Shown one piece after another: positions 2,221-61,155 of a stretch of DNA of 64,000 nt. The stretch is from a bacterium (GTDB taxonomy: Bacteria; Electryoneota; RPQS01), in NCBI GenBank assembly GCA_036504735.1, contig DASXUQ010000005.1, positions 713,377-777,376 on the forward strand, written 5' to 3'. A program made the translations under genes and the position numbers. The notes under the pieces were generated by a model. That model did not search any database. It was not told the origin of the DNA and saw nothing but the letters and a program-made list of their open reading frames with translations. Each line of letters begins with the position of its first letter. Positions within the stretch are counted from its first letter, which is position 1.

Positions 2221-2823
2221 ATGCCCTTTTTTAAGATTCCCGAAGGCGAGTACCTGCTCTCCGCGCCCAACATTCAGGCGGCGCCCAAGCGTCCCTTGCC
2301 CGAGATCGCCTTTGCCGGACGCAGCAATGTGGGCAAGTCCTCGCTCATCAATTCGCTGCTGAACCGCAAAAGCCTCGCCCTCACCTCGCGCACTCCCGGC
2401 AAGACGCGGATGCTCAACTACTATCTGATTGGCCGTGGCCTCTGCTACTTTGTGGATCTGCCCGGCTATGGTTACGCGCGTGTCTCCGGCAATCTGAAGG
2501 AGCAGTGGGGACAGTTTATTGAAGACTATCTGCGCGAATCTTCGCGCCTGATTATCGTGGTCCTGATTCTCGACATCCGTCACGGCCTGACGCCCCTCGA
2601 CCGCGAGATGGTCAGCGGCCTGCACACGCTGAACCGCCCGTGGATGGCCGTGCTCACCAAGCTCGACAAGCTCAATGCCCGCGAGAAACAGCAAGCCATG
2701 AAGACGCTCGAAGGCGAACTTATCTCCCTCGGCGCCCGCGCTGTCATCCCCTACTCTTCCCTGAACCACACGGGCCGTGATCCCCTCTGGCAGCACCTCA
2801 CCGCCACCATCGAGAGAAAATGA
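2221..2823 (+). CDS. engB: Ribosome biogenesis GTP-binding protein EngB/YsxC
   Basis: A 200-residue TrmE-Era-EngA-EngB-Septin-like GTPase that assists assembly of the large ribosomal subunit. All G motifs are visible: G1 GRSNVGKSS, a switch-I threonine in SRTPGKT, G3 DLPGYGYA, G4 TKLDK and G5 SSL. The length is typical of EngB. I use ATG 2221, because the family has only about 20 residues before G1, rather than TTG 2179. No strong Shine-Dalgarno precedes either start. It follows lon after a terminator, so it is probably transcribed separately. The function is an inference from a very well conserved family. Confidence 0.93.
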   Translation: MPFFKIPEGEYLLSAPNIQAAPKRPLPEIAFAGRSNVGKSSLINSLLNRKSLALTSRTPGKTRMLNYYLIGRGLCYFVDLPGYGYARVSGNLKEQWGQFIEDYLRESSRLIIVVLILDIRHGLTPLDREMVSGLHTLNRPWMAVLTKLDKLNAREKQQAMKTLEGELISLGARAVIPYSSLNHTGRDPLWQHLTATIERK

Positions 2824-2846
2824 CGTAGTTGCACAGCTTGCTGTGC
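2824..2846 (+). repeat. Dispersed 23-bp palindromic repeat, copy 1
   Basis: Begins at the last base of the engB stop codon plus one and contains GCACAGC-TT-GCTGTGC, a 7-bp stem with a 2-nt loop. It matches 40721-40743 at 21 of 23 positions, again just after a stop codon. A related inverted copy lies at 40686-40707. Confidence 0.6.
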
Positions 2847-2873
2847 TTCTCTTCCTGATGATCGAATGAAAAC

Positions 2874-2905
2874 AGAAGCGCGACCCCACAAAAGGTCGCG
2901 CTTCT
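2874..2905 (-). terminator. Intrinsic terminator of the leftward LVIVD gene
   Basis: A 12-bp perfect stem, AGAAGCGCGACC (2874-2885) with GGTCGCGCTTCT (2894-2905). Read leftwards it is followed by GTTTTC. It lies 52 nt past the stop of the leftward gene ending at 2957 and also separates it from the convergent engB. Confidence 0.75.
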
Positions 2906-2956
2906 CTCCCCGGTGCACCCCCGAAAGGGGGTTTCCGATTTCTAATCCTACATACT

Positions 2957-4012
2957 CTAATGCGTGTAAATCACCAACCCGGACAAATCATCCGTCGCAT
3001 ACAATCGTCCATTGTCCACACACACCGAGGTTGGGTGCGTCAGCGGCAGCAGTTGCACCTTTTCGGGATGACGCGGGTCGCGGATATCCACTATATAGAT
3101 ACCGTCATAGCCGTCCACGATGCACGCCCAGTTGCCGTCAATCGCCACTCCGCGCATGCGGTTCGAATTGGGAATGGTGTACTGCGAAATTATCTGCGGG
3201 TGCGCCGCATCCTGCACGTTCATGATCACCATCTCAAAATCGCACGCCACCACCAGCAAACTGTCTTGGTACCAGGCACAATCAAAGGCCGAACCGGGGA
3301 CTATTTGAATGGAGCGCACTGCACCTGTGGAATCGTCGACAAAGTGAACACCGGTTTCCTCGACCGCGACCGCCCATAAATGGTTCCTCTTGCTGTGGGA
3401 AAACCCTTGCCCGCGGTCGCTCCCGGTCCAACCGGATGAGGGCAAATGAATCGAATCAGCTTGGAATGTGAAATTGCAGAAATTTGGATCCCACGCCGAT
3501 GTGTCCGAATCCCGGCACGTCTGTCCGCCATCCAGCACTCTGCTGTGTGACGTAAACCAGTATGTGATGGTGTTTGGTTCGGATTCCATACATAGTCCGT
3601 AGACGGGTCCCTGTATGCTTATAGCCGGACCTGGTCCGCCGGTCATGTAATCAATCGACGTCGCACCCGAGTAGCGGGGTTCCGTCAACCAGCAGACCAC
3701 ATGATGTTGCGCATCGATTGCAATCTTTGAAGCACCTGCCGTCGGATTATAATAGTGCTGCAACGTGTCGTGGAACACCTGCGTGATATTCCCGAGATCG
3801 CGCACATCATAGACTACTGCGCCGTAAGAACTCGCGGCAACGCCTGCGTAACCATCCTGTACCGATACATCTTTTGCTTCACCCGGAATGCTGACGGTCA
3901 TCGCCCAACGGTACGGCTGAGGCGGCACGTCGGGATTGTTCGGGCTATCGCACCCGACAAACGTCACAGCAAATAACGCCAGAAGAAGGATTCCACTCAA
4001 AATTGGTTTCAT
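2957..4012 (-). CDS. LVIVD-repeat lipoprotein, copy A
   Basis: A 351-residue exported protein. The start is set at ATG 4012 because it begins a lipoprotein signal peptide (hydrophobic LLLALFAVTF, then lipobox FVGC with Cys21). The mature part has repeated short beta segments of the LVIVD type, such as IYIVDIRDPRHPE and MVIMNVQDAAHP, typical of beta-propeller-like surface proteins of unknown function. It is clearly paralogous to the next gene upstream over its whole length, with C-terminal halves close to identical in pattern (MRGVAIDG, VDGYDGIY). The gap to that gene is 52 nt, so the two probably share a transcript. No enzymatic motif is visible. The likely location is the outer membrane or periplasm. 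Confidence 0.8.
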   Translation of the reverse strand: MKPILSGILLLALFAVTFVGCDSPNNPDVPPQPYRWAMTVSIPGEAKDVSVQDGYAGVAASSYGAVVYDVRDLGNITQVFHDTLQHYYNPTAGASKIAIDAQHHVVCWLTEPRYSGATSIDYMTGGPGPAISIQGPVYGLCMESEPNTITYWFTSHSRVLDGGQTCRDSDTSAWDPNFCNFTFQADSIHLPSSGWTGSDRGQGFSHSKRNHLWAVAVEETGVHFVDDSTGAVRSIQIVPGSAFDCAWYQDSLLVVACDFEMVIMNVQDAAHPQIISQYTIPNSNRMRGVAIDGNWACIVDGYDGIYIVDIRDPRHPEKVQLLPLTHPTSVCVDNGRLYATDDLSGLVIYTH

Positions 4013-4064
4013 CGCGCCGGATTCCGCTCTCTTTGGATGACTGAACATGTTTGCTCCTGATCGC

Positions 4065-5135
4065 CTAACGCGTGAACACCGACAAACGCCCAACCTGCTC
4101 CGTCGTATAAATCCGTCCCGCATCTGCCCAAACAGAGGTCGGTGAATCGAGTTTCATAAGCTGCACATAAGCAGGGGTGCGCGGATTCGTGATATCCACC
4201 ACATAGATCCCATCGTAACCATCCATCACGCAGGCGTAGCCACCGTCAATGGCGACACCGCGCATCCGGTCGGATGTGGGAATCGTCAGCCGTCCAATCG
4301 TCTCAGGATGAGCCGCATCACGTGCGTTCATTACGACCATCTCGAAGTCACCCGCGACGATCAGCAAGCTGTCACGGTACCACTTGCAATCGTAAGCCGC
4401 ACCGGCAAATGGCAGTGCAGACATCTGCGTTCCTACCGAGTCGAGAAAGATAACTCCCGCCTCCTCGGTTGCTAAAGCACTGATCCCGTCTGTCGCTCTG
4501 CGATCCACGCCTTGAGGCGCATTGGTGCTGCCGAACGATGTCGTCGGGATTCCATACGTAAAGTCCGCTGATCCTGTGGGGACCCACTGTGATGTATCGC
4601 TATCACGCTGCATACGGTAGCCAACGAAACTTCCACCGCTTGTGCCGCGCCCTTCCCCCCCGAGAAACAAAACATTGTTCCGCTGGCTGACAATACCTGT
4701 GGCAAGAAAAGCACCGAAACTGATGCTGCTGGGAAGCGCTTCAGCGACGTACGAATGGTGCAGATAATCGTATGCAGGATTGGAGCCGACTCCTCCCACA
4801 ACGGGGTTCGATGCGAAGGCCACCAGATGATTGAGCGTGTCCAACATCGCTCGATTCATAACCGTGAAGGCACTGGTGCCGGGGAAGCGGGCAACCGTGT
4901 CAATGTGCGCCAGATCGCGCACGTTGAGCACCACGCCGCCGTACGCTCCGACGGCCACCGCCGCGAGATCCCCCGAAGCTACCACATGCTTGGCCGCAGC
5001 GGAAAAGGAATACGTCGCCGCCAGATGATAAGGCTGCGGCTGCGATTCGGGCGAGTTCGGGCTGTCGCACCCGCCAAAGATCACCATCGCGGCCACGAAG
5101 GTAAGGAGGAGCATCCCTCCCAAAATCCGTTTCAT
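4065..5135 (-). CDS. LVIVD-repeat lipoprotein, copy B
   Basis: A 356-residue lipoprotein paralogous to the following gene. ATG 5135 gives a lipoprotein signal (LLLTFVAAMVIFGGC) and forms a 4-nt ATGA overlap with the stop codon of the upstream phosphatase gene, which fixes this start and implies translational coupling. The mature protein shows the same LVIVD-type repeats: LNVRDLAHIDTV, MVVMNARDAAHPE and YVVDITNPRTPA. The tandem pair probably arose by duplication. I do not recognise a specific function. Its tight linkage to vitamin B6 and phosphatase genes is unusual for this family. Confidence 0.82.
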   Translation of the reverse strand: MKRILGGMLLLTFVAAMVIFGGCDSPNSPESQPQPYHLAATYSFSAAAKHVVASGDLAAVAVGAYGGVVLNVRDLAHIDTVARFPGTSAFTVMNRAMLDTLNHLVAFASNPVVGGVGSNPAYDYLHHSYVAEALPSSISFGAFLATGIVSQRNNVLFLGGEGRGTSGGSFVGYRMQRDSDTSQWVPTGSADFTYGIPTTSFGSTNAPQGVDRRATDGISALATEEAGVIFLDSVGTQMSALPFAGAAYDCKWYRDSLLIVAGDFEMVVMNARDAAHPETIGRLTIPTSDRMRGVAIDGGYACVMDGYDGIYVVDITNPRTPAYVQLMKLDSPTSVWADAGRIYTTEQVGRLSVFTR

Positions 5136-5800
5136 CGTCGAAGATCCTGCTCTGTTTGGATTATGTTGCCGAGCGCGTGCTCGATGTCGTAAAATGTTTC
5201 GTAGGGGATAAAGGGCCGGCCGGATTTCAGGCACTCCCGCGCCAGATTTCCGGTGGCAAAGAGGATATCGGCATGTTGTGCCGGACAGAGATCGGTGTAA
5301 CCGTCACCGATGTAGACGAGCTTTTTTCCGGCGGCGCGCTCGGCCAGCACATAAGAACACTTGCAATGGCTGCAATGCTCCGCGTGCCGCTTACCATCCC
5401 ACAGCACCGCCTTCCAGCGTCTGCCGTCAATCTGCGCCGTGTGGGATATAACCGGCACATCCGGCACTCCCGCCCGCGCCAGCAGCGTTTCTATCAAGGG
5501 CCGCAGTCCGCCGGAAAGAATCATGAACGGCAGATTATTCCGCCGGCAAAAAGCGATGAACTCCGCAAACCCGTCGCGGATAATCACTCCCTTATCCATC
5601 GCCGCGCAGGCGTCTTCCCACGTCACGTTCAGCAAACCGATCTGCCGGGGAAAGGCTTCCCGTTCCGTCAGCCGCCCGCTCCACACGGCATCGTCCAGTT
5701 CCTTCCACTCCGGCGGCGCGTATCGTTGCAGCAGAAAATCGCAGGCGTCCGGAATCGAAATCGTGCCGTCAAAATCACAGCAGATGGAATAGTCCGTCAT
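5132..5800 (-). CDS. HAD-superfamily phosphatase, MtnX/phosphoserine-phosphatase-like
   Basis: A 222-residue haloacid-dehalogenase-type phosphatase. Motif I is CCDFDGTIS (nucleophile Asp9, acid Asp11), motif II is MILSGG and motif IV is YIGDGYTDLCPA. The HCSHCK segment in the middle resembles the cysteine-containing cap of MtnX (2-hydroxy-3-keto-5-methylthiopentenyl-1-phosphate phosphatase of methionine salvage), but the rest of that pathway is not in the window. The substrate is therefore uncertain; a phosphoserine-type or pyridoxine-phosphate substrate also fits the genomic position. Both ends overlap neighbours by ATGA (with pdxT upstream and the LVIVD gene downstream), so it belongs to the pdx transcript. 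Confidence 0.75.
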   Translation of the reverse strand: MTDYSICCDFDGTISIPDACDFLLQRYAPPEWKELDDAVWSGRLTEREAFPRQIGLLNVTWEDACAAMDKGVIIRDGFAEFIAFCRRNNLPFMILSGGLRPLIETLLARAGVPDVPVISHTAQIDGRRWKAVLWDGKRHAEHCSHCKCSYVLAERAAGKKLVYIGDGYTDLCPAQHADILFATGNLARECLKSGRPFIPYETFYDIEHALGNIIQTEQDLRR

Positions 5801-6372
5801 GGCCGCAGCGACAAAAAGAACCGGTGCAGCCGCAAATCCCCCGTCAACTCCGGATGAAACGACGACGCCATGAAATGCCCTTGCCGCACCGCCACGGGAT
5901 CACTGCCCAGCCAGGCCAGCGGCTCGACATTCTCCCCCATTCGCGTAATGCGCGGTGCGCGAATGAACACACCGTGCAGCGGAGTCTGCGCATCTTCCAC
6001 GTTGCCGGATAGCTTCAGGTCCGATTCGAAGGAATGCACCTGCCGCCCGTAACCGTTGCGCTGAATATCCAGGTCAAGGAACCCGAGGGGCTTCACACGC
6101 GGATCACTCGCGTCCTTGGAAAGCATAATCATTCCCGCGCACGTGCCCCACACCGGATGCGTCTCGCAGAAGGTGTGCAGCCGTTCCAGCAATTCGGGAA
6201 GCAGCAGCAACGTCAGCGTCGTGCTCTCCCCGCCGGGAATAATCAGTCCGGACAGCCCGTCCAAATCTTCCGCCGTGCGCACTTCCCGCGCTTCGGCGCC
6301 CGCGGCTTCCAGCGCGCGCTTGTGCTTTTCGAAATCCCCTTGCAGGGCCAGAACACCAATCCGACGTGCCAT
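5797..6372 (-). CDS. pdxT: Pyridoxal 5'-phosphate synthase glutaminase subunit PdxT
   Basis: A class I glutaminase, 191 residues, that releases ammonia from glutamine and channels it to PdxS for ribose-5-phosphate-dependent PLP synthesis. Visible motifs are the N-terminal IGVLALQGDFEKH, the oxyanion strand GGESTT, the nucleophile elbow GTCAGM, and the His-Glu pair in SSFHPELTGD. ATG 6372 is chosen because the family starts directly with this strand. It lies 124 nt downstream of pdxS with a hairpin pair between, and its stop overlaps the start of the HAD gene (ATGA). Confidence 0.95.
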   Translation of the reverse strand: MARRIGVLALQGDFEKHKRALEAAGAEAREVRTAEDLDGLSGLIIPGGESTTLTLLLLPELLERLHTFCETHPVWGTCAGMIMLSKDASDPRVKPLGFLDLDIQRNGYGRQVHSFESDLKLSGNVEDAQTPLHGVFIRAPRITRMGENVEPLAWLGSDPVAVRQGHFMASSFHPELTGDLRLHRFFLSLRP

Positions 6373-6434
6373 TATCTCACTAAAATACGTTTTCGTGGTT
6401 TGCCACCCGAACAACAATCTCGACGCCGGCAGGC

Positions 6435-6497
6435 ATTCAGGTGCAGGGCTTAGCCCTGCCGCCGGGCAGGCGATTCAGGTGCAGGGGTTACCCCTGC
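6435..6497 (+). repeat. Pair of 25-bp direct repeats, each a hairpin
   Basis: The units at 6435-6459 and 6473-6497 differ only in the loop-flanking bases and each contains a GCAGGG(C/G)TTA(G/C)CCCTGC palindrome. They sit in the pdxS-pdxT spacer, and the second touches the pdxS stop codon. There is no T-tract, so they are not obvious terminators. They could stabilise the upstream pdxS mRNA end. Confidence 0.6.
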
Positions 6498-7384
6498 TAC
6501 CATCCCCGTGTGGACAGCAGTTCTTCTTCCTTCATGGTCCGCACGTCGAGACTCGGCATGGCCTGCAGCAGACCCGCCGACACGTCCACCAACTTCTTCG
6601 GATCGTTGTAGTACGTCGTCGCCAGCACAATCGCCCGGCCGCGCGCTTCGGGATCTTCACTCTTGAAAATGCCCGAGCCCACAAACACCGATTCCGCGCC
6701 AAGCTGCATCATCAGCGCCGCGTCCGCCGGCGTGGCAATGCCGCCCGCCGCAAAGTTCGGCACCGGCAGTTTGCCCAGTTCGCGCACCTGCACCAGCAGC
6801 TCGTAGGGAGCGCCGATCTCCTTGCCGTAGTGCACCAGCTCTTCGTCGCCCATCACCTGCACGCGCTTGATCGCCGACATGACCGTGCGCATGTGGCGAA
6901 CGGCTTCCACGATGTTGCCCGTGCCCGCTTCGCCCTTGGTGCGGATCATTGCCGCGCCTTCGGCGATCCGCCGCAACGCTTCGCCCAGATCCCGGCAACC
7001 GCACACGAACGGCACCGTGAACTTGTGCTTGGCAATGTGAAAACTCTCGTCGGCGGGAGTCAGCACTTCGCTCTCATCGATGAAATCGACTTCCAGAGCT
7101 TCGAGAATCTGCGCCTCGACAAAATGTCCGATACGGCACTTGGCCATCACGGGAATGGACACGGCTTCCTGGATCTCGCGGATTTTCTTTACGTCGGACA
7201 TGCGCGCGACCCCGCCGTCCCGGCGGATATCGGAAGGAACGCGTTCCAGAGCCATTACCGCCACGGCGCCCGCGTCTTCCGCGATCCGCGCCTGCTCGGC
7301 ATCTGTCACGTCCATAATCACCCCGCCCTTGAGCATTTCCGCAAGTCCGACCTTGGCGGTGAAGGTTCCTGTTTCTTTCGTCAT
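6497..7384 (-). CDS. pdxS: Pyridoxal 5'-phosphate synthase lyase subunit PdxS
   Basis: A 295-residue TIM-barrel enzyme that builds PLP from ribose 5-phosphate, glyceraldehyde 3-phosphate and ammonia supplied by PdxT. The sequence follows the family closely: [20 protein letters not shown], the Schiff-base lysine region MAKCRIGHF, and the second lysine in [12 protein letters not shown]. The length is typical. ATG 7384 is 24 nt from the stop of the FG-GAP gene upstream, so read-through from that gene is possible. The pdxS-pdxT order on one strand supports a deoxyxylulose-independent vitamin B6 route in this organism. Confidence 0.97.
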
Positions 7385-19061: not shown

Positions 19062-19102
19062 AAAACAAGCGAGGGTTCTCCGGCAGTGAGAACCCTCGCT
19101 TG
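19062..19102 (-). terminator. Terminator at the end of the Cys-rich array
   Basis: A perfect 15-bp inverted repeat, CAAGCGAGGGTTCTC (19066-19080) and GAGAACCCTCGCTTG (19088-19102). Read leftwards it is followed by TTTT. It is the strongest hairpin in this part of the window and closes the four-gene array. Confidence 0.85.
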
Positions 19103-19161
19103 TCAATTAGCAGCCGGGCACGGCGGCGGCACACCAGCCGCGCCCGGACCTGCTCCGCAGA
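19103..19161 (-). pseudogene. Possible 3' remnant of a further Cys-rich copy
   Basis: Directly after the stop of the last Cys-rich gene, one minus-strand frame reads CGAGPGAAGVPPPCPAAN and then a stop at 19105-19103. This resembles the family's conserved tail (CVRPxxxPPC-stop). The stretch is short and GC-rich, so chance is possible. Confidence 0.3.
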
Positions 19162-19644
19162 TCACTGATAACAGGGCCGTGCGCTGAGTGCGCGTATGCA
19201 TCCACCGGCCACGCAGTCATCCCTGCATTGTCCGCAATCGGGCTGATTGGGGCAGGGTTCAAGGCATACTTGCAGGGTATAGCGTTCCCCGGCTCTGAGA
19301 TTGACGGTGCAGGTGTTATTGCAGTCCCGGTTCACGCAGTCCCGGCTGCTGCATACCGCCACCGGCTGAGTGCCGGACGGAGAATAGATCGCCGCACAAG
19401 ACATACAGCCAAAGCAGTTCGTACTGGACTGGCAGGCCGTCCACACATCGAACGCATACGTTCCGGACACCTCCACGGTGAACGTCGCTGACGTGCAACT
19501 GGTAGGAGTGATGAACGTAGGCGGACACGTGAGACGCTCGCAGCCGCGGTCGATCACGGTGACGACGGGATTCGGCGGCTGAGCCCAAACAGTCATGGGC
19601 AGAACCAGCGCCAATGTCAGTAACAAACCAATGACGACTCTCAT
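19162..19644 (-). CDS. Cys-rich secreted protein, array member 1
   Basis: 160 residues. ATG 19644 has AGAGGTG upstream and opens a Sec signal peptide (MRVVIGLLLTLALVLPMTVW, AQ cleavage). The mature part of about 138 residues carries 18 cysteines. The shared family pattern is GC-x(4)-CPP, CTSATFTV, GTYAFDVWTAC, GCMSCAAIY, DCNNTCTVNLRAGERYTLQV, CLEPCPNQPDC and a terminal RPCYQ. The alternating beta-strand pattern with C-x-x-C pairs suggests a disulfide-stapled beta-sandwich that acts outside the cytoplasm. I do not recognise the family. It is the last of four tandem paralogues and ends at a strong terminator. Zinc-binding or structural roles are possible, but nothing in the sequence decides. 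Confidence 0.8.
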   Translation of the reverse strand: MRVVIGLLLTLALVLPMTVWAQPPNPVVTVIDRGCERLTCPPTFITPTSCTSATFTVEVSGTYAFDVWTACQSSTNCFGCMSCAAIYSPSGTQPVAVCSSRDCVNRDCNNTCTVNLRAGERYTLQVCLEPCPNQPDCGQCRDDCVAGGCIRALSARPCYQ

Positions 19645-19715
19645 TTCACACCTCTTCGTTTGTGAGATACACCGGCGGCATCTCGCTTTCCGCATCTGAC
19701 GCCGCCTATACCCGA

Positions 19716-20174
19716 TTAATTGCAGGGCGGCGACGCCGCGGGCCGGACGCAGCCTCCGGCGACACACCCGTTCGCGCAGGCCGTGCAATCGCGCTCATTC
19801 GGACAAGGTTCCAGACACACCTGGAACGTATAGATGACTCCGGCCTGCAGATTGACCCGGCACGTGTTGTTGCAGTCGCGATTGCTGCATCCGGTGGTCG
19901 CGCAGGTGATCAGGGGAACAACGGTCGTGCCCCAGATCGTCGCACAGGACATGCAGTGCCAGCACTCGGTAGCGCAGGCCGTCCACGTGTCCATCTCGTA
20001 GGTCCCCGTCACAGGAACAGTAAAGGTCGATACCTTGCACAGATTGGACGGGCTGGTGGGCGGACAGGGCAGAATATCGCATCCGGTGTCCTTTAAGGCG
20101 ATAATGGGTTGCGCCGTGCCTGCCAGGGGCAGCAGCAGCGCGAGAGCGAAAAGCACATACAGAATGGATTTCAT
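19716..20174 (-). CDS. Cys-rich secreted protein, array member 2
   Basis: 152 residues, 18 cysteines in the mature part at the same spacing as member 1 (WTAC, HCMSCATIW, DCNNTCRVNLQAG, CLEPCPNERDC, GGCVRP, PPCN end). Signal peptide MKSILYVLFALALLLPLAGT with AQ after it. The ribosome-binding site AGGAGGTG is very strong, 4 nt from ATG 20174. It is closest to member 1, with an almost identical DCNNTC to CLEPCPN block. The spacer to member 1 is 71 nt without a terminator, so the two share a message. The role is unknown; secretion and heavy disulfide bonding are the only safe statements. Confidence 0.82.
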   Translation of the reverse strand: MKSILYVLFALALLLPLAGTAQPIIALKDTGCDILPCPPTSPSNLCKVSTFTVPVTGTYEMDTWTACATECWHCMSCATIWGTTVVPLITCATTGCSNRDCNNTCRVNLQAGVIYTFQVCLEPCPNERDCTACANGCVAGGCVRPAASPPCN

Positions 20175-20232
20175 AGTTCACCTCCTGTTTCGTGTACTCT
20201 CTTCTCCTTGCGAACAACGCTCAACTCGACAC

Positions 20233-20682
20233 TTAGTAGCAAGGTGGCGTTGTGGGCGGCCGTACACAGCCCCAGGCTTGGCAACGCTCGTCGCACGGAG
20301 TGGTGCCGGTCACGCACTGCAGCAGGCATACGTCGATCGTGTAGGTTCCAGCCGGCAGGCTCACGCGGCAGCTCTCATTGCAGTCACTGCCGGGACATCC
20401 GACGCTGCACTTGTAGAGCTGGGCACCCGTCATGCTGTGAATGGTCACGCACGACACGCAGCTCTGGCATGGGGTGTTAGGACAGCGGATCCACGAGTCG
20501 ATGACATAGTCCCCCGTGACGGGCACGGTAAATGTGGCGGACGTGCAACCTGCAAACCCATCGGGCGGACAGGTCATGCTCGAAGTCGGACGCGTGTCGC
20601 TGAGCGTGATCAGCGGCTGTGCCGACGCGATGGCCGGCAGCATCAGGGCAACGGCCAGCAAAGCCAAAAAGAAATTTTTCAT
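20233..20682 (-). CDS. Cys-rich secreted protein, array member 3 (16 Cys)
   Basis: 149 residues, the most divergent member. It keeps CPP, GCTSATFTVPVTGDY, SCVSCVTIH, DCNESCRVSLPAG and PPCY, but has only 16 mature cysteines: the first family cysteine (GC before CPP) and one in the C-terminal cluster (TPCDERCQAWGC instead of four Cys) are both absent. Signal peptide MKNFFLALLAVALMLPAIAS, then AQ. Ribosome-binding site GGAGGTG before ATG 20682. The spacer to member 2 is 58 nt. It is exported and of unknown function; the paired loss suggests that those two cysteines bond to each other in the other members. Confidence 0.82.
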   Translation of the reverse strand: MKNFFLALLAVALMLPAIASAQPLITLSDTRPTSSMTCPPDGFAGCTSATFTVPVTGDYVIDSWIRCPNTPCQSCVSCVTIHSMTGAQLYKCSVGCPGSDCNESCRVSLPAGTYTIDVCLLQCVTGTTPCDERCQAWGCVRPPTTPPCY

Positions 20683-20745
20683 TCTACACCTCCGGTTTGG
20701 ATTCTACTCTTTCCGTTCATGATTCTGCATCCCAACGGGGACGCG

Positions 20746-20831
20746 TCAGTAACAGGTGGGGTTGGTGACGACCTCCCCGAATTGTTCCCGGACAAAAACG
20801 GCGTCCGCCGCTGTTACGCGGCGGATGTAGG
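20746..20831 (-). pseudogene. Possible second 3' tail after array member 4
   Basis: Downstream of the member-4 stop, in another frame, the minus strand reads VVTNPTCY then TGA (20748-20746), like the family end PPCY/RPCY-stop. No cysteine framework remains upstream of it. It may be a relic of a deleted array unit. Confidence 0.3.
20793..20825 (-). terminator. Hairpin with T run between array members 4 and 3
   Basis: TCCGCCGC (20804-20811) pairs with GCGGCGGA (20818-20825), 6-nt loop. Read leftwards, five T follow a short GC spacer. It starts 7 nt after the member-4 stop, so it may reduce read-through and make member 4 the most abundant product. Confidence 0.6.
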
Positions 20832-21293
20832 TCAGTAGCAGGGCCTGATGGTGTTCGGGTACCGCACACAGGCGTTGGCCGTACAGTCGCGACACGGGCT
20901 GCAATCAGCCGCTCCCGTGGGACAGGGCTCCAGGCAGACTCCGATAATGTAGGTCTGGCCGGCTGCAAGCCGCACAGTGCAGGTGTTGCCGCAGTTCGCG
21001 CTTCCACAGCCGCCGCCGCAGGTGGCTATGGGGACCCGCGACCCATCCGCGAGGTAGATGGCGGTGCAGGCATAGCAGCTACGACAGTCATGATCGGGAC
21101 ACACCACCCATGCGTCCAGAGCGTACTCCCCCGTGGTGGGAACAGTGAAGCTCGCCGATGTGCATCCGGTGGCATTGAGCGGCGGGCAATCCCCCAGTGT
21201 ACAGCCTTTGTCGCTCACCGAGACGATTTGCGCCATACTGAAAGTGGGCAGAGCCAGCAGTATCGCCAGCGCCAAAACAAGAACGACTTTCAT
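20832..21293 (-). CDS. Cys-rich secreted protein, array member 4 (promoter-proximal)
   Basis: 153 residues, first gene of the array. ATG 21293 is preferred to GTG 21296 because AAGGAGG sits 7 nt upstream. The signal peptide ends FSMAQ. The mature part has 18 cysteines in the family framework (GC-x(4)-CPP, GCTSASFTVPTTG, WVVC, SCYACTAIY, NCGNTCTVRLAAG, CLEPCP, RPCY end). It lies 73 nt downstream of a near-perfect sigma-70 promoter and is followed by a hairpin with a T run, which points to high expression. Function unknown. Array position, export and conservation of every cysteine argue for a structural or binding protein rather than an enzyme. Confidence 0.83.
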   Translation of the reverse strand: MKVVLVLALAILLALPTFSMAQIVSVSDKGCTLGDCPPLNATGCTSASFTVPTTGEYALDAWVVCPDHDCRSCYACTAIYLADGSRVPIATCGGGCGSANCGNTCTVRLAAGQTYIIGVCLEPCPTGAADCSPCRDCTANACVRYPNTIRPCY

Positions 21294-21365
21294 CACAGAC
21301 CTCCTTGTTGATAAACGGCCCCCTCCCCATTGTCAAATGTTGTCGGACCCAGACTTCATGGCTTA

Positions 21366-21394
21366 AATATACCGCCCCACACAAGAGATGTCAA
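21366..21394 (-). promoter_or_regulatory. Consensus sigma-70 promoter of the Cys-rich array
   Basis: On the minus strand: -35 TTGACA (21394-21389), spacer exactly 17 nt, -10 TATATT (21371-21366). This is the best promoter match in the window, with transcription expected to start near 21359. Confidence 0.78.
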
Positions 21395-21589: not shown

Positions 21590-21624
21590 CAAAAAGAAAG
21601 CCGCCCGATGGCTCGAGCGGCTTT
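21590..21624 (-). terminator. Intrinsic terminator of the suf operon
   Basis: AAAGCCGC (21597-21604) pairs with GCGGCTTT (21617-21624). Read leftwards it is followed by CTTTTTG. It lies 28 nt past the sufU stop. Confidence 0.83.
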
Positions 21625-58767: not shown

Positions 58768-59502
58768 CTACTGAAGGACCGTCACCCACGCAGTGTCGCT
58801 CCTCCCACCCCGACACCCGCTGATGAAGTAATACCGGCTCGGTGTTGCTGGCGGAAACCATAAACCGATAGCCGTGCCATTGTCGTCTGTTGGCTGCCAC
58901 ATGTCCAGGACTCCCTGTTCCGGCGTCATGGAAACATTGAATCCTGCCGGAGCCGACATGCCGCTGCGCCACCCTGTCCACGCACGGACATTAACAGAAT
59001 CCGCGCGCCCGGCCCCGCGAACATGCACGGTATCTGGCTGCAACTCAACATGGACAGTATCGAAGACATCCATTGTCGTAGCGGCTCGAAACCACATCGT
59101 GTAATTGCATTCTACGCTGCCATAGTTCGCGTGGATTATGTTGTAACCGGCACCCACAGCGCATCTAGTATGAAAGACGAAGTCAACGCGTCCATCGGCG
59201 TCCGTGGTGTCCTGCGTCGCCGAAGTATACTCAATGAAGCCCACACCGGGCTGAACCAGTGACAGATGTACTCTGAAGTCGGACTGTGGCAAGCCTGTCC
59301 CGCCGTTCGTCATTTTGACGTAACCCTGAACAGCAGCGGAATCCCCGGGGAAAGCTTGCAGGGTGTCTGTCGGCGTCAACATGACAATCCGCGGAAAAAT
59401 TGGACCGTCTGTCCGTGGCATCGGCGGGTACTTGTCGTTGCATCCCCACCATGCCATTCCCGTTACAGCCGTCAGCAGAGCAATCGCTGCAAAGCGTTTC
59501 AT
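58768..59502 (-). CDS. Ig-like A+B-unit lipoprotein, array member 1
   Basis: 244 residues. Lipoprotein signal MKRFAAIALLTAVTGMAWWG, then Cys21. The mature part is one A domain (LTPTDTLQAFPGDSAAVQGY, TTDADGRVDFVFHTRC, GYNIIHANYGSVECNY) and one B domain (VELQPDTVHVRGAGRADSVN, QPTDDNGTAIGLWFPP), both Ig-like beta-sandwiches resembling bacterial Ig-like/filamin-type modules. It is the last Ig-like gene in transcription order and is preceded by a 96-nt spacer. Probably an outer-membrane surface or periplasmic lipoprotein. Adhesion or a structural role is possible; no binding motif is visible. Confidence 0.83.
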   Translation of the reverse strand: MKRFAAIALLTAVTGMAWWGCNDKYPPMPRTDGPIFPRIVMLTPTDTLQAFPGDSAAVQGYVKMTNGGTGLPQSDFRVHLSLVQPGVGFIEYTSATQDTTDADGRVDFVFHTRCAVGAGYNIIHANYGSVECNYTMWFRAATTMDVFDTVHVELQPDTVHVRGAGRADSVNVRAWTGWRSGMSAPAGFNVSMTPEQGVLDMWQPTDDNGTAIGLWFPPATPSRYYFISGCRGGRSDTAWVTVLQ

Positions 59503-59598
59503 CTTCGTTCCCTCCCCAAGTTGCGTAACTCAAAGTCCGTTCGTGATGACGCGGAAATCAAGTCGATTTCCGCGCGGTCGCAAACAGTGCCGAGTAAA
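59503..59598 (-). repeat. 96-nt array spacer 1 with hairpin
   Basis: Nearly identical to spacer 2. It carries the perfect hairpin CGCGGAAATC-AAGTC-GATTTCCGCG (59550-59574) and, on the minus strand, the GGGAGGGAACGAAG ribosome-binding region of the next gene. No T run follows, so termination is unlikely. Confidence 0.8.
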
Positions 59599-60333
59599 TT
59601 ACCGTAAGCCGAGGGTTGAATCCACGAAAACACTGTCTCTTAAGTTGAAATTGCTCCACGGCGCCGAAATGATGAACCAGCCATAAGCCGTCGGATACCA
59701 ATGCCCGACCGTCCGCCCTGAGATGTCGGTGGGAGGAAATGGATCTGGCGAGAAATATCCTCCCGTAGCCGCAAATGGAATCGTCACCCCGAAAATACCC
59801 ACACCGGAGGTGTCAATGATGGTAAACCAGACCTGAACCGAGTCCTGCAATGTCAAATGCCGACGGCTGAGTCCCAAATGTATTTGATCGTCGAAAACGA
59901 TGGTCGGCTCAAACCAAATCGTATACTCGCCAAAAGCCGAGCCGTGCCGTGCACGAATCGTGTTCGTTACACGTTGGTCAGCCACGCGATGGCGAAGCAC
60001 AAAACTTACTTGTCCCAAGCTATTGGTCGTGTCCCGATGAGAATCGGTGAACTCAAACCATCCGGCATCAGGGTCGGAAAGCTCGAGGTCCAGCCGCGTC
60101 CCTTCCACCCCGTAGTCCGAACCCTGTTCCTTGGCAATGGCATATCCTGCCACCGAAACAGTGTCTCCGGGCATGGACCTCAACGTATCCGTGGGGGTTA
60201 ACAGAATGACCTGAAGAAGCAGATACCCACCACACCTTCTGTTGATGATGGAGTCGTCTTTAGATGGGTAACACCCCGTTAACCCCATGCCCACCAAAAC
60301 CATCAGCAGAGCAATCGCTGCAAAGCGTTTCAT
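59599..60333 (-). CDS. Ig-like A+B-unit lipoprotein, array member 2
   Basis: 244 residues, the same length as member 1. The signal MKRFAAIALLMVLVGMGLTG then Cys shares its first ten residues with member 1. The A domain (LTPTDTLRSMPGDTVSVAGY, HRDTTNSLGQVSFVLRHRV) diverges, while the B domain (LSRRHLTLQDSVQVWFTIID, GYFSPDPFPPTDISGRTVGH, STLGLR end) is almost the same as that of member 3. It is a mosaic of its neighbours, as expected from recombination within the array. Extracytoplasmic lipoprotein; function unknown. Confidence 0.83.
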   Translation of the reverse strand: MKRFAAIALLMVLVGMGLTGCYPSKDDSIINRRCGGYLLLQVILLTPTDTLRSMPGDTVSVAGYAIAKEQGSDYGVEGTRLDLELSDPDAGWFEFTDSHRDTTNSLGQVSFVLRHRVADQRVTNTIRARHGSAFGEYTIWFEPTIVFDDQIHLGLSRRHLTLQDSVQVWFTIIDTSGVGIFGVTIPFAATGGYFSPDPFPPTDISGRTVGHWYPTAYGWFIISAPWSNFNLRDSVFVDSTLGLR

Positions 60334-60429
60334 CTTCGTTCCCTCCCCAAGTTGCGTAACTCAAAGTCCGTCCGTGATGACGCGGAAATCAAGTCGATTT
60401 CCGCGCGGTCTCAAACAGGGATGAGAAAA
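60334..60429 (-). repeat. 96-nt array spacer 2 with hairpin
   Basis: The same length as and close to identical with spacer 1; hairpin at 60381-60405 in the same register. This repeated spacer shows that the duplicated unit was gene plus spacer. Confidence 0.8.
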
Positions 60430-61155
60430 TTACCGTAAGCCGAGGGTTGAATCCACGGAAACGCTGTCCTTTGCGGTGAAATTTCTCCACGGCGCCGAAA
60501 TGATGAACCAGCCATAGGCCGTCGGATACCAATGCCCGACCGTCCGCCCTGAGATGTCGGTGGGAGGAAATGGATCCGGCGAGAAGTACCCGCCCGTAGC
60601 CGTAAATGGAATCGTCACCCCGGAAACACCCACACCGGAGGTGTCAATGATGGTAAACGAGACCTGAACCGAGTCCTGCAATGTCAAAAGCCGACGGCTG
60701 AGTCCTATGTGAGGCACAGGGAGAAGAGTGCAGACCGGTTGAATCCAAATCTTGTAGTCGGCCTCCGCGCTGCCGACGCTGACATGAATGATGTTGTAAC
60801 CGTTTCCTGGCTGCCGATTGGTCCGGAAAACGAAATCCACACGGCCAAGACTGTTCGTCGTATCATTCGGGCACTCCAGCACACCCACACCGGGATACCG
60901 CAGCGACAAATTCACCTTCACGCCCGGCTCCACAAGACCGGAGGCCGCATCTTTCACCACCACAAAGCCCTGTGCCGATGCCGAATCACCCGGCAGAAAC
61001 CTCAAGGTGTCCGTCGGACTCAACATGACAATCTGCACACCATACCAACCGCACCCGCGCCGATAAGGCAGGTCATGCGTCACATCCTCCTGGCACCCCA
61101 CCAATCCCATTCCCACCAAAGCCAGCAACCCGGCCACCATGGCAAAGCTCTTCAT
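60430..61155 (-). CDS. Ig-like A+B-unit lipoprotein, array member 3
   Basis: 241 residues. Lipoprotein signal MKSFAMVAGLLALVGMGLVG then Cys21. The A domain begins LSPTDTLRFLPGDSASAQGF and contains NSLGRVDFVFRTN; the B domain is LSRRLLTLQDSVQVSFTIID, GYFSPDPFPPTDISGRTVGH, then STLGLR, nearly identical to member 2. The N-terminal half is closer in style to the A domains of member 4 (FLPGDSA). Membrane-anchored outside the cytoplasm. Part of the leftward array transcript starting with member 4. Confidence 0.83.
   Translation of the reverse strand: MKSFAMVAGLLALVGMGLVGCQEDVTHDLPYRRGCGWYGVQIVMLSPTDTLRFLPGDSASAQGFVVVKDAASGLVEPGVKVNLSLRYPGVGVLECPNDTTNSLGRVDFVFRTNRQPGNGYNIIHVSVGSAEADYKIWIQPVCTLLPVPHIGLSRRLLTLQDSVQVSFTIIDTSGVGVSGVTIPFTATGGYFSPDPFPPTDISGRTVGHWYPTAYGWFIISAPWRNFTAKDSVSVDSTLGLR

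Follow-up and report, generated by a model that had tools for sequence, protein, structure and literature searches.

What is the role of four adjacent genes for small, cysteine-rich exported proteins in a bacterium of the poorly known lineage Electryoneota (RPQS01)? The genes are found on the minus strand, at positions 19162-21293 of a stretch of 64,000 nucleotides of contig DASXUQ010000005.1 (hereafter the window), where four tandem open reading frames, named A to D in the 5' to 3' direction, encode proteins of 149-160 amino acids. Coordinates of the features of this locus are collected in Table 1.

Table 1. Features of the four-gene locus, in window coordinates
Feature	Position	Strand	Description
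Promoter TTGACA-17-TATATT	21366-21394	-	5' of gene A; exact match, 11/12 to consensus
Gene A	20832-21293	-	Exported Cys-rich protein, predicted beta-sandwich; 153 aa, 18 Cys in mature part
Terminator-like hairpin, then TTTTT	20804-20825	-	Directly 3' of gene A; 8 pairs, 7 GC; consensus match only
Gene B	20233-20682	-	Family member; 149 aa, 16 Cys; lacks counterparts of C10 and C110 of mature gene A product
Gene C	19716-20174	-	Family member; 152 aa, 18 Cys
Gene D	19162-19644	-	Family member; 160 aa, 18 Cys
Perfect 16-nt inverted repeat	19065-19103	-	7-nt loop, closes operon; short, weak T run

A to D are real genes, in which the protein is conserved and synonymous sites are near saturation. 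The paralogues share 43-54% identity in protein and 51-60% in nucleotide sequence, with pS at 0.64-0.78 (near saturation) and pN at only 0.32-0.40; consequently, purifying selection acts on the proteins, and the duplications are old. The signal peptide of each protein is hydrophobic and ends in ...A-Q, and the mature proteins are acidic (pI 4.7-4.9) with a mass of about 14 kDa. A preliminary description, made from the letters of the sequence alone, had proposed four adjacent exported proteins with a common cysteine framework and strong ribosome-binding sites, and both proposals are confirmed; a purine-rich ribosome site of the GGAGG/GAGG type precedes all four reading frames. The details of the framework require some revision. 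Eighteen cysteines are present in A, C and D but not in B, where one is missing near either end of the chain, and the number of invariant cysteines is 16. The motifs said to follow a common order do so as a framework but vary in sequence: in B, CLLQCV replaces CLEPCP, and the C-terminal ends across the four proteins are RPCY, PPCY, PPCN and RPCYQ, so that the supposed PPCY end is not constant.

The promoter reported for the operon is found exactly as described. The more general pattern TTGACA-N15-19-TATATT occurs at 64 sites in the whole window genome versus 0 sites for a reversed control pattern, which indicates a genuine promoter type of the host; it is a strong, usable promoter signature for the window lineage. 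The 15-bp terminator claimed at the end of the operon was correct in part: a hairpin does exist 3' of gene D, with arms of 16 nt, but it lies outside the range given for the operon and has a weak T run. Compared with it, the hairpin behind gene A is the better terminator-like element. Judged from its sequence, this hairpin may uncouple gene A from genes B to D, and A may then be the most abundant product. On one side of the operon are genes that look, on inspection by eye, like a Suf Fe-S cluster operon, which has a separate terminator-like hairpin at 21597-21624; on the other side is a prephenate-dehydrogenase-like gene. The gap between A and B (20683-20831) contains an in-frame ...VTNPTCY-stop remnant that resembles the C-terminus of another copy and is perhaps a decayed fifth gene. 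Elsewhere in the window, at 58768-61155, there are three tandem open reading frames of 241-244 aa, at least two of which start with similar lipoprotein-like signal sequences.

The small proteins yield nothing significant in Pfam, NCBIfam, PADLOC and PDB sequence searches, in agreement with the earlier statement that they represent no known family. Family profiles were built from A to D first and then from the relatives found, and detect 37 members in 6 of the 11 genomes of the window's family-level group: 13 in genome G010, 11 in G007, 6 in the window genome (G000), 3 in G001, and 2 each in G002 and G005. No member was found in G003, a genome of the same group that is 56% complete, and the profiles detect none outside the group, whether in the remaining 28 genomes from the phylum or in about 350 genomes at greater distance. 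A scan of a contig database with the four window proteins revealed no relative; the same scan with the beta-helix partner described below added one further gene pair, on a contig of G005 itself. The cysteine framework, whose absence from homologues in related genomes had been named as a point that would count against the preliminary description, is kept in these homologues. In a diverged sister branch (L042 4417-4962 and L049 7289-7819), the N-terminus carries a hydrophobic anchor, a linker is charged and rich in proline, and the number of cysteines is 8-10. AlphaFold2, supplied with 37 aligned sequences, models the mature product of gene A as an 8-strand beta-sandwich with pLDDT 92.2 and pTM 0.86. 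We conclude that A to D represent a family that is undescribed and restricted to one lineage, and whose members are small, Sec-exported and predicted to fold as beta-sandwiches. Literature searches on beta-helix, the type IX secretion system (T9SS), cysteine-rich and similar terms found no paper, most subscription journals being outside the search.

The pattern of cysteines is informative about their state. Members have between 8 and 22 cysteines, and in 34 of the 37 the total is even (the even values being 8, 10, 14, 16, 18, 20 and 22), one of the three odd cases being a broken copy, versus 12 of 27 for the downstream partners used as a control; the members are kin, so a binomial figure for this parity would overstate its significance. 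Moreover, cysteine columns are lost jointly (10 with 110, 71 with 84, and 75 with 99), gene B lacking exactly the first of these pairs, and one extra pair is present in 27 members and absent in 8 with no exception. Even totals and paired losses favor disulfides over metal sites, and the combination of a signal peptide with paired cysteines is that of a disulfide-rich secreted protein. As far as sequence patterns can tell, the small proteins are probably disulfide-stapled, as had been suggested, with up to about 11 disulfides. The same evidence bears on the proposal of a metal-binding or redox protein in which CxxCxxC and other cysteines serve as ligands. That proposal would account for the conservation of CxxCxxC in most members and would fit the failure to find DsbA, DsbB or VKOR, but cysteines that come and go in pairs and add up to even totals make it highly improbable.

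The lack of recognizable oxidants raises a question in its own right, namely how up to eleven putative disulfides are made without identifiable Dsb or VKOR enzymes. DsbA, DsbB and VKOR have no match in the window genome, and DsbA and VKOR have none in the five other member genomes (G001, G002, G005, G007 and G010), with positive search controls in both cases; the secreted proteins of the family in these six genomes contain, for the most part, 14-22 cysteines. Either the oxidant is an unrecognized one, or the profiles miss it, or oxidation is uncatalyzed. Genome G005 also encodes an exported protein of 1570 aa (L040 11980-16692) in which 98 cysteines form part of repeats such as CDLGRCCYSGGC, CXXCH being absent.

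The key result concerns the genes that follow the small ones in related genomes. The usual next gene encodes a protein of about 520-550 aa that starts with ..VLxVPxEYxTIQxALDS.., and the Pfam models Beta_helix (PF13229) and Por_Secre_tail (PF18962) each match 15 of 16 such partners. A beta-helix gene is located directly downstream on the same strand for 28 of the 37 members in all genomes, at distances from a slight overlap to about 65 bp; examples are L041 2035-2511 with 2533-4113 and L152 7200-7676 with 5564-7183. Another three members are followed by T9SS-tail proteins of other kinds, namely a subtilase, an Omp28-like protein and, at a broken frame, a protein whose tail is marginal. Outside the window genome, 30 of 31 members are thus directly 5' of T9SS cargo, one of the tails being marginal. 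Placement upstream of T9SS cargo, which is absent from the preliminary description, is the norm in this family and the window quartet is the exception. The association also holds in the reverse direction: 28 of the 29 strongest beta-helix matches in member genomes (E<1e-70) have a small member directly upstream. The sole exception, at G010:C25, is a cargo gene without a small gene that follows a ferritin-like gene; a complete pair in G007 likewise follows a ferritin-like gene, which suggests that the small gene was lost at G010:C25. G007 also has a broken pair (L190 3949-5909), in which stops interrupt the small gene as well as the beta-helix gene.

The small gene and its partner diversify together as a unit. 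Over 27 pairs, the correlation between their distance matrices is r=0.78, a value reached in 0 of 10,000 permutations, and within two single genomes it is 0.87 and 0.89; such a correlation results from co-duplication as a unit and does not prove contact between the two proteins. The model of the beta-helix partner is fair (pLDDT 75). Its likeness to polysaccharide lyase and phage tailspike reaches only TM of about 0.3, and for this reason we assign no catalytic role to it.

This arrangement has consequences for two further interpretations. A toxin-like product, also considered previously, here taken as a secreted antibacterial or host-directed toxin, would be in keeping with small, exported, cysteine-rich proteins in multiple copies, but there is no match to any toxin or defense model, no immunity-like gene was seen, and the linkage to structural T9SS cargo is tight; we regard it as the least probable of all interpretations. 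A more serious alternative is that the small protein is a periplasmic escort, which as a dedicated chaperone or cap would maintain the beta-helix cargo in an export-competent state without being displayed. An escort would fit with a small gene that is the first of its pair, with a product that has a signal peptide and no T9SS tail, and with one-to-one pairing with cysteine-containing cargo. However, it is not obvious why a chaperone would need 18-22 cysteines, the cargo gene at G010:C25 survives without a small gene, and the window genome has six copies for one canonical pair. We consider the escort unlikely.

The six members of the window genome comprise this canonical pair, located on another contig (G000:C2:267563-269675), and five solo copies, which are the window quartet and a distant copy at G000:C10:433051-433506. 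No T9SS gene adjoins the quartet or the C10 copy, so that only 1 of 6 members in this genome is directly 5' of a gene with a T9SS tail. In a tree, the five solo copies form a weakly supported cluster (86/56) that does not include the paired copy. These five represent an expansion without partners, the quartet having lost its T9SS neighbor, and since they have none, a role as companion of the cargo cannot be universal. The window genome does encode the T9SS translocon SprA (E=2.8e-176), and at least about 150 T9SS sorting tails are found among the matches listed.

The solo copies lend weight to the main rival explanation, in which the small proteins are free-standing secreted glycan- or matrix-binding proteins and the T9SS neighborhood reflects only shared expression and block duplication. 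Five of the six copies in the window genome stand alone, and the predicted fold is in the jelly-roll/CBM class. On the other hand, shared expression alone explains less well why 28 of 29 strong beta-helix partners keep an upstream member even though identity among the pairs has dropped to roughly 30%, and we find this explanation somewhat unlikely, with the escort next in order and the metal and toxin readings poorly supported.

The explanation that we prefer, with a probability of about one half, is that the small proteins have the putative function of disulfide-stapled subunits that accompany T9SS surface cargo. In the usual arrangement, the gene for each small protein immediately precedes that for a single large T9SS cargo, most often a right-handed beta-helix of about 530 aa with a C-terminal sorting tail, and the small protein would probably bind this cargo or act with it at the cell surface, a candidate role being that of an accessory subunit or a glycan-binding module. 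The genes, signal peptides, fold prediction, cysteine-pairing signal, gene pairing, co-duplication and T9SS presence are computational results; physical contact with the cargo, surface location and a ligand are inferred. That the proteins are a surface component, as had been proposed, is plausible but indirect, as it derives from the neighboring T9SS surface cargo in relatives; a point against it is that a sorting tail for surface delivery is missing from the small proteins (no match to PF18962 or PF13585 in any member). The quartet and the C10 copy would be an emancipated expansion without partners, the quartet with a promoter of its own, and presumably either function as free-standing secreted or matrix proteins or serve other T9SS cargo in trans. 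More tentatively, it is possible that the family represents a new class of T9SS accessory proteins, i.e., one-to-one disulfide-stapled companions that occur up to about 13-fold per genome and undergo oxidative folding without DsbA, DsbB or VKOR. The significance of the finding is that an uncatalogued secreted family with a confidently predicted fold is tied to T9SS cargo, which suggests that some T9SS surface proteins have a dedicated small partner.

Among known systems, T9SS cargo with a Por_Secre_tail and a right-handed beta-helix is exactly the usual downstream partner, whereas the small proteins have neither the sorting tail nor the beta-helix. Foldseek matches to the gene A model are generic jelly rolls with TM of 0.27-0.57, the best in the PDB including the ColH collagen-binding domain, CBM6, p24 GOLD and C1q/TNF folds, and a viral fold library likewise returned generic jelly rolls only. 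With C1q/TNF-type jelly rolls, including BclA_C, the small proteins share the topology class, but they lack a collagen stalk and are, by prediction, heavily disulfide-bonded; neither a significant sequence match nor a TM above 0.5 was found (TM 0.27-0.40 for C1q/TNF; weak matches only, E 0.06-0.3, for BclA_C, PF18573). The PPC (PF04151) and ColH collagen-binding domains are small secreted beta-sandwiches, as the small proteins are by prediction, but ColH (3jqw), one of the best solved folds, is aligned to the gene A model at TM of only 0.48/0.54. The best E-value of the PPC model is 0.1, in 1 of 37 members and with a score below the curated Pfam cut-off, so that no significant sequence match accompanies this likeness. 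The small proteins further differ from these domains in their 16-18 conserved cysteines, and whereas PPC is a C-terminal domain, they are encoded by free-standing genes.
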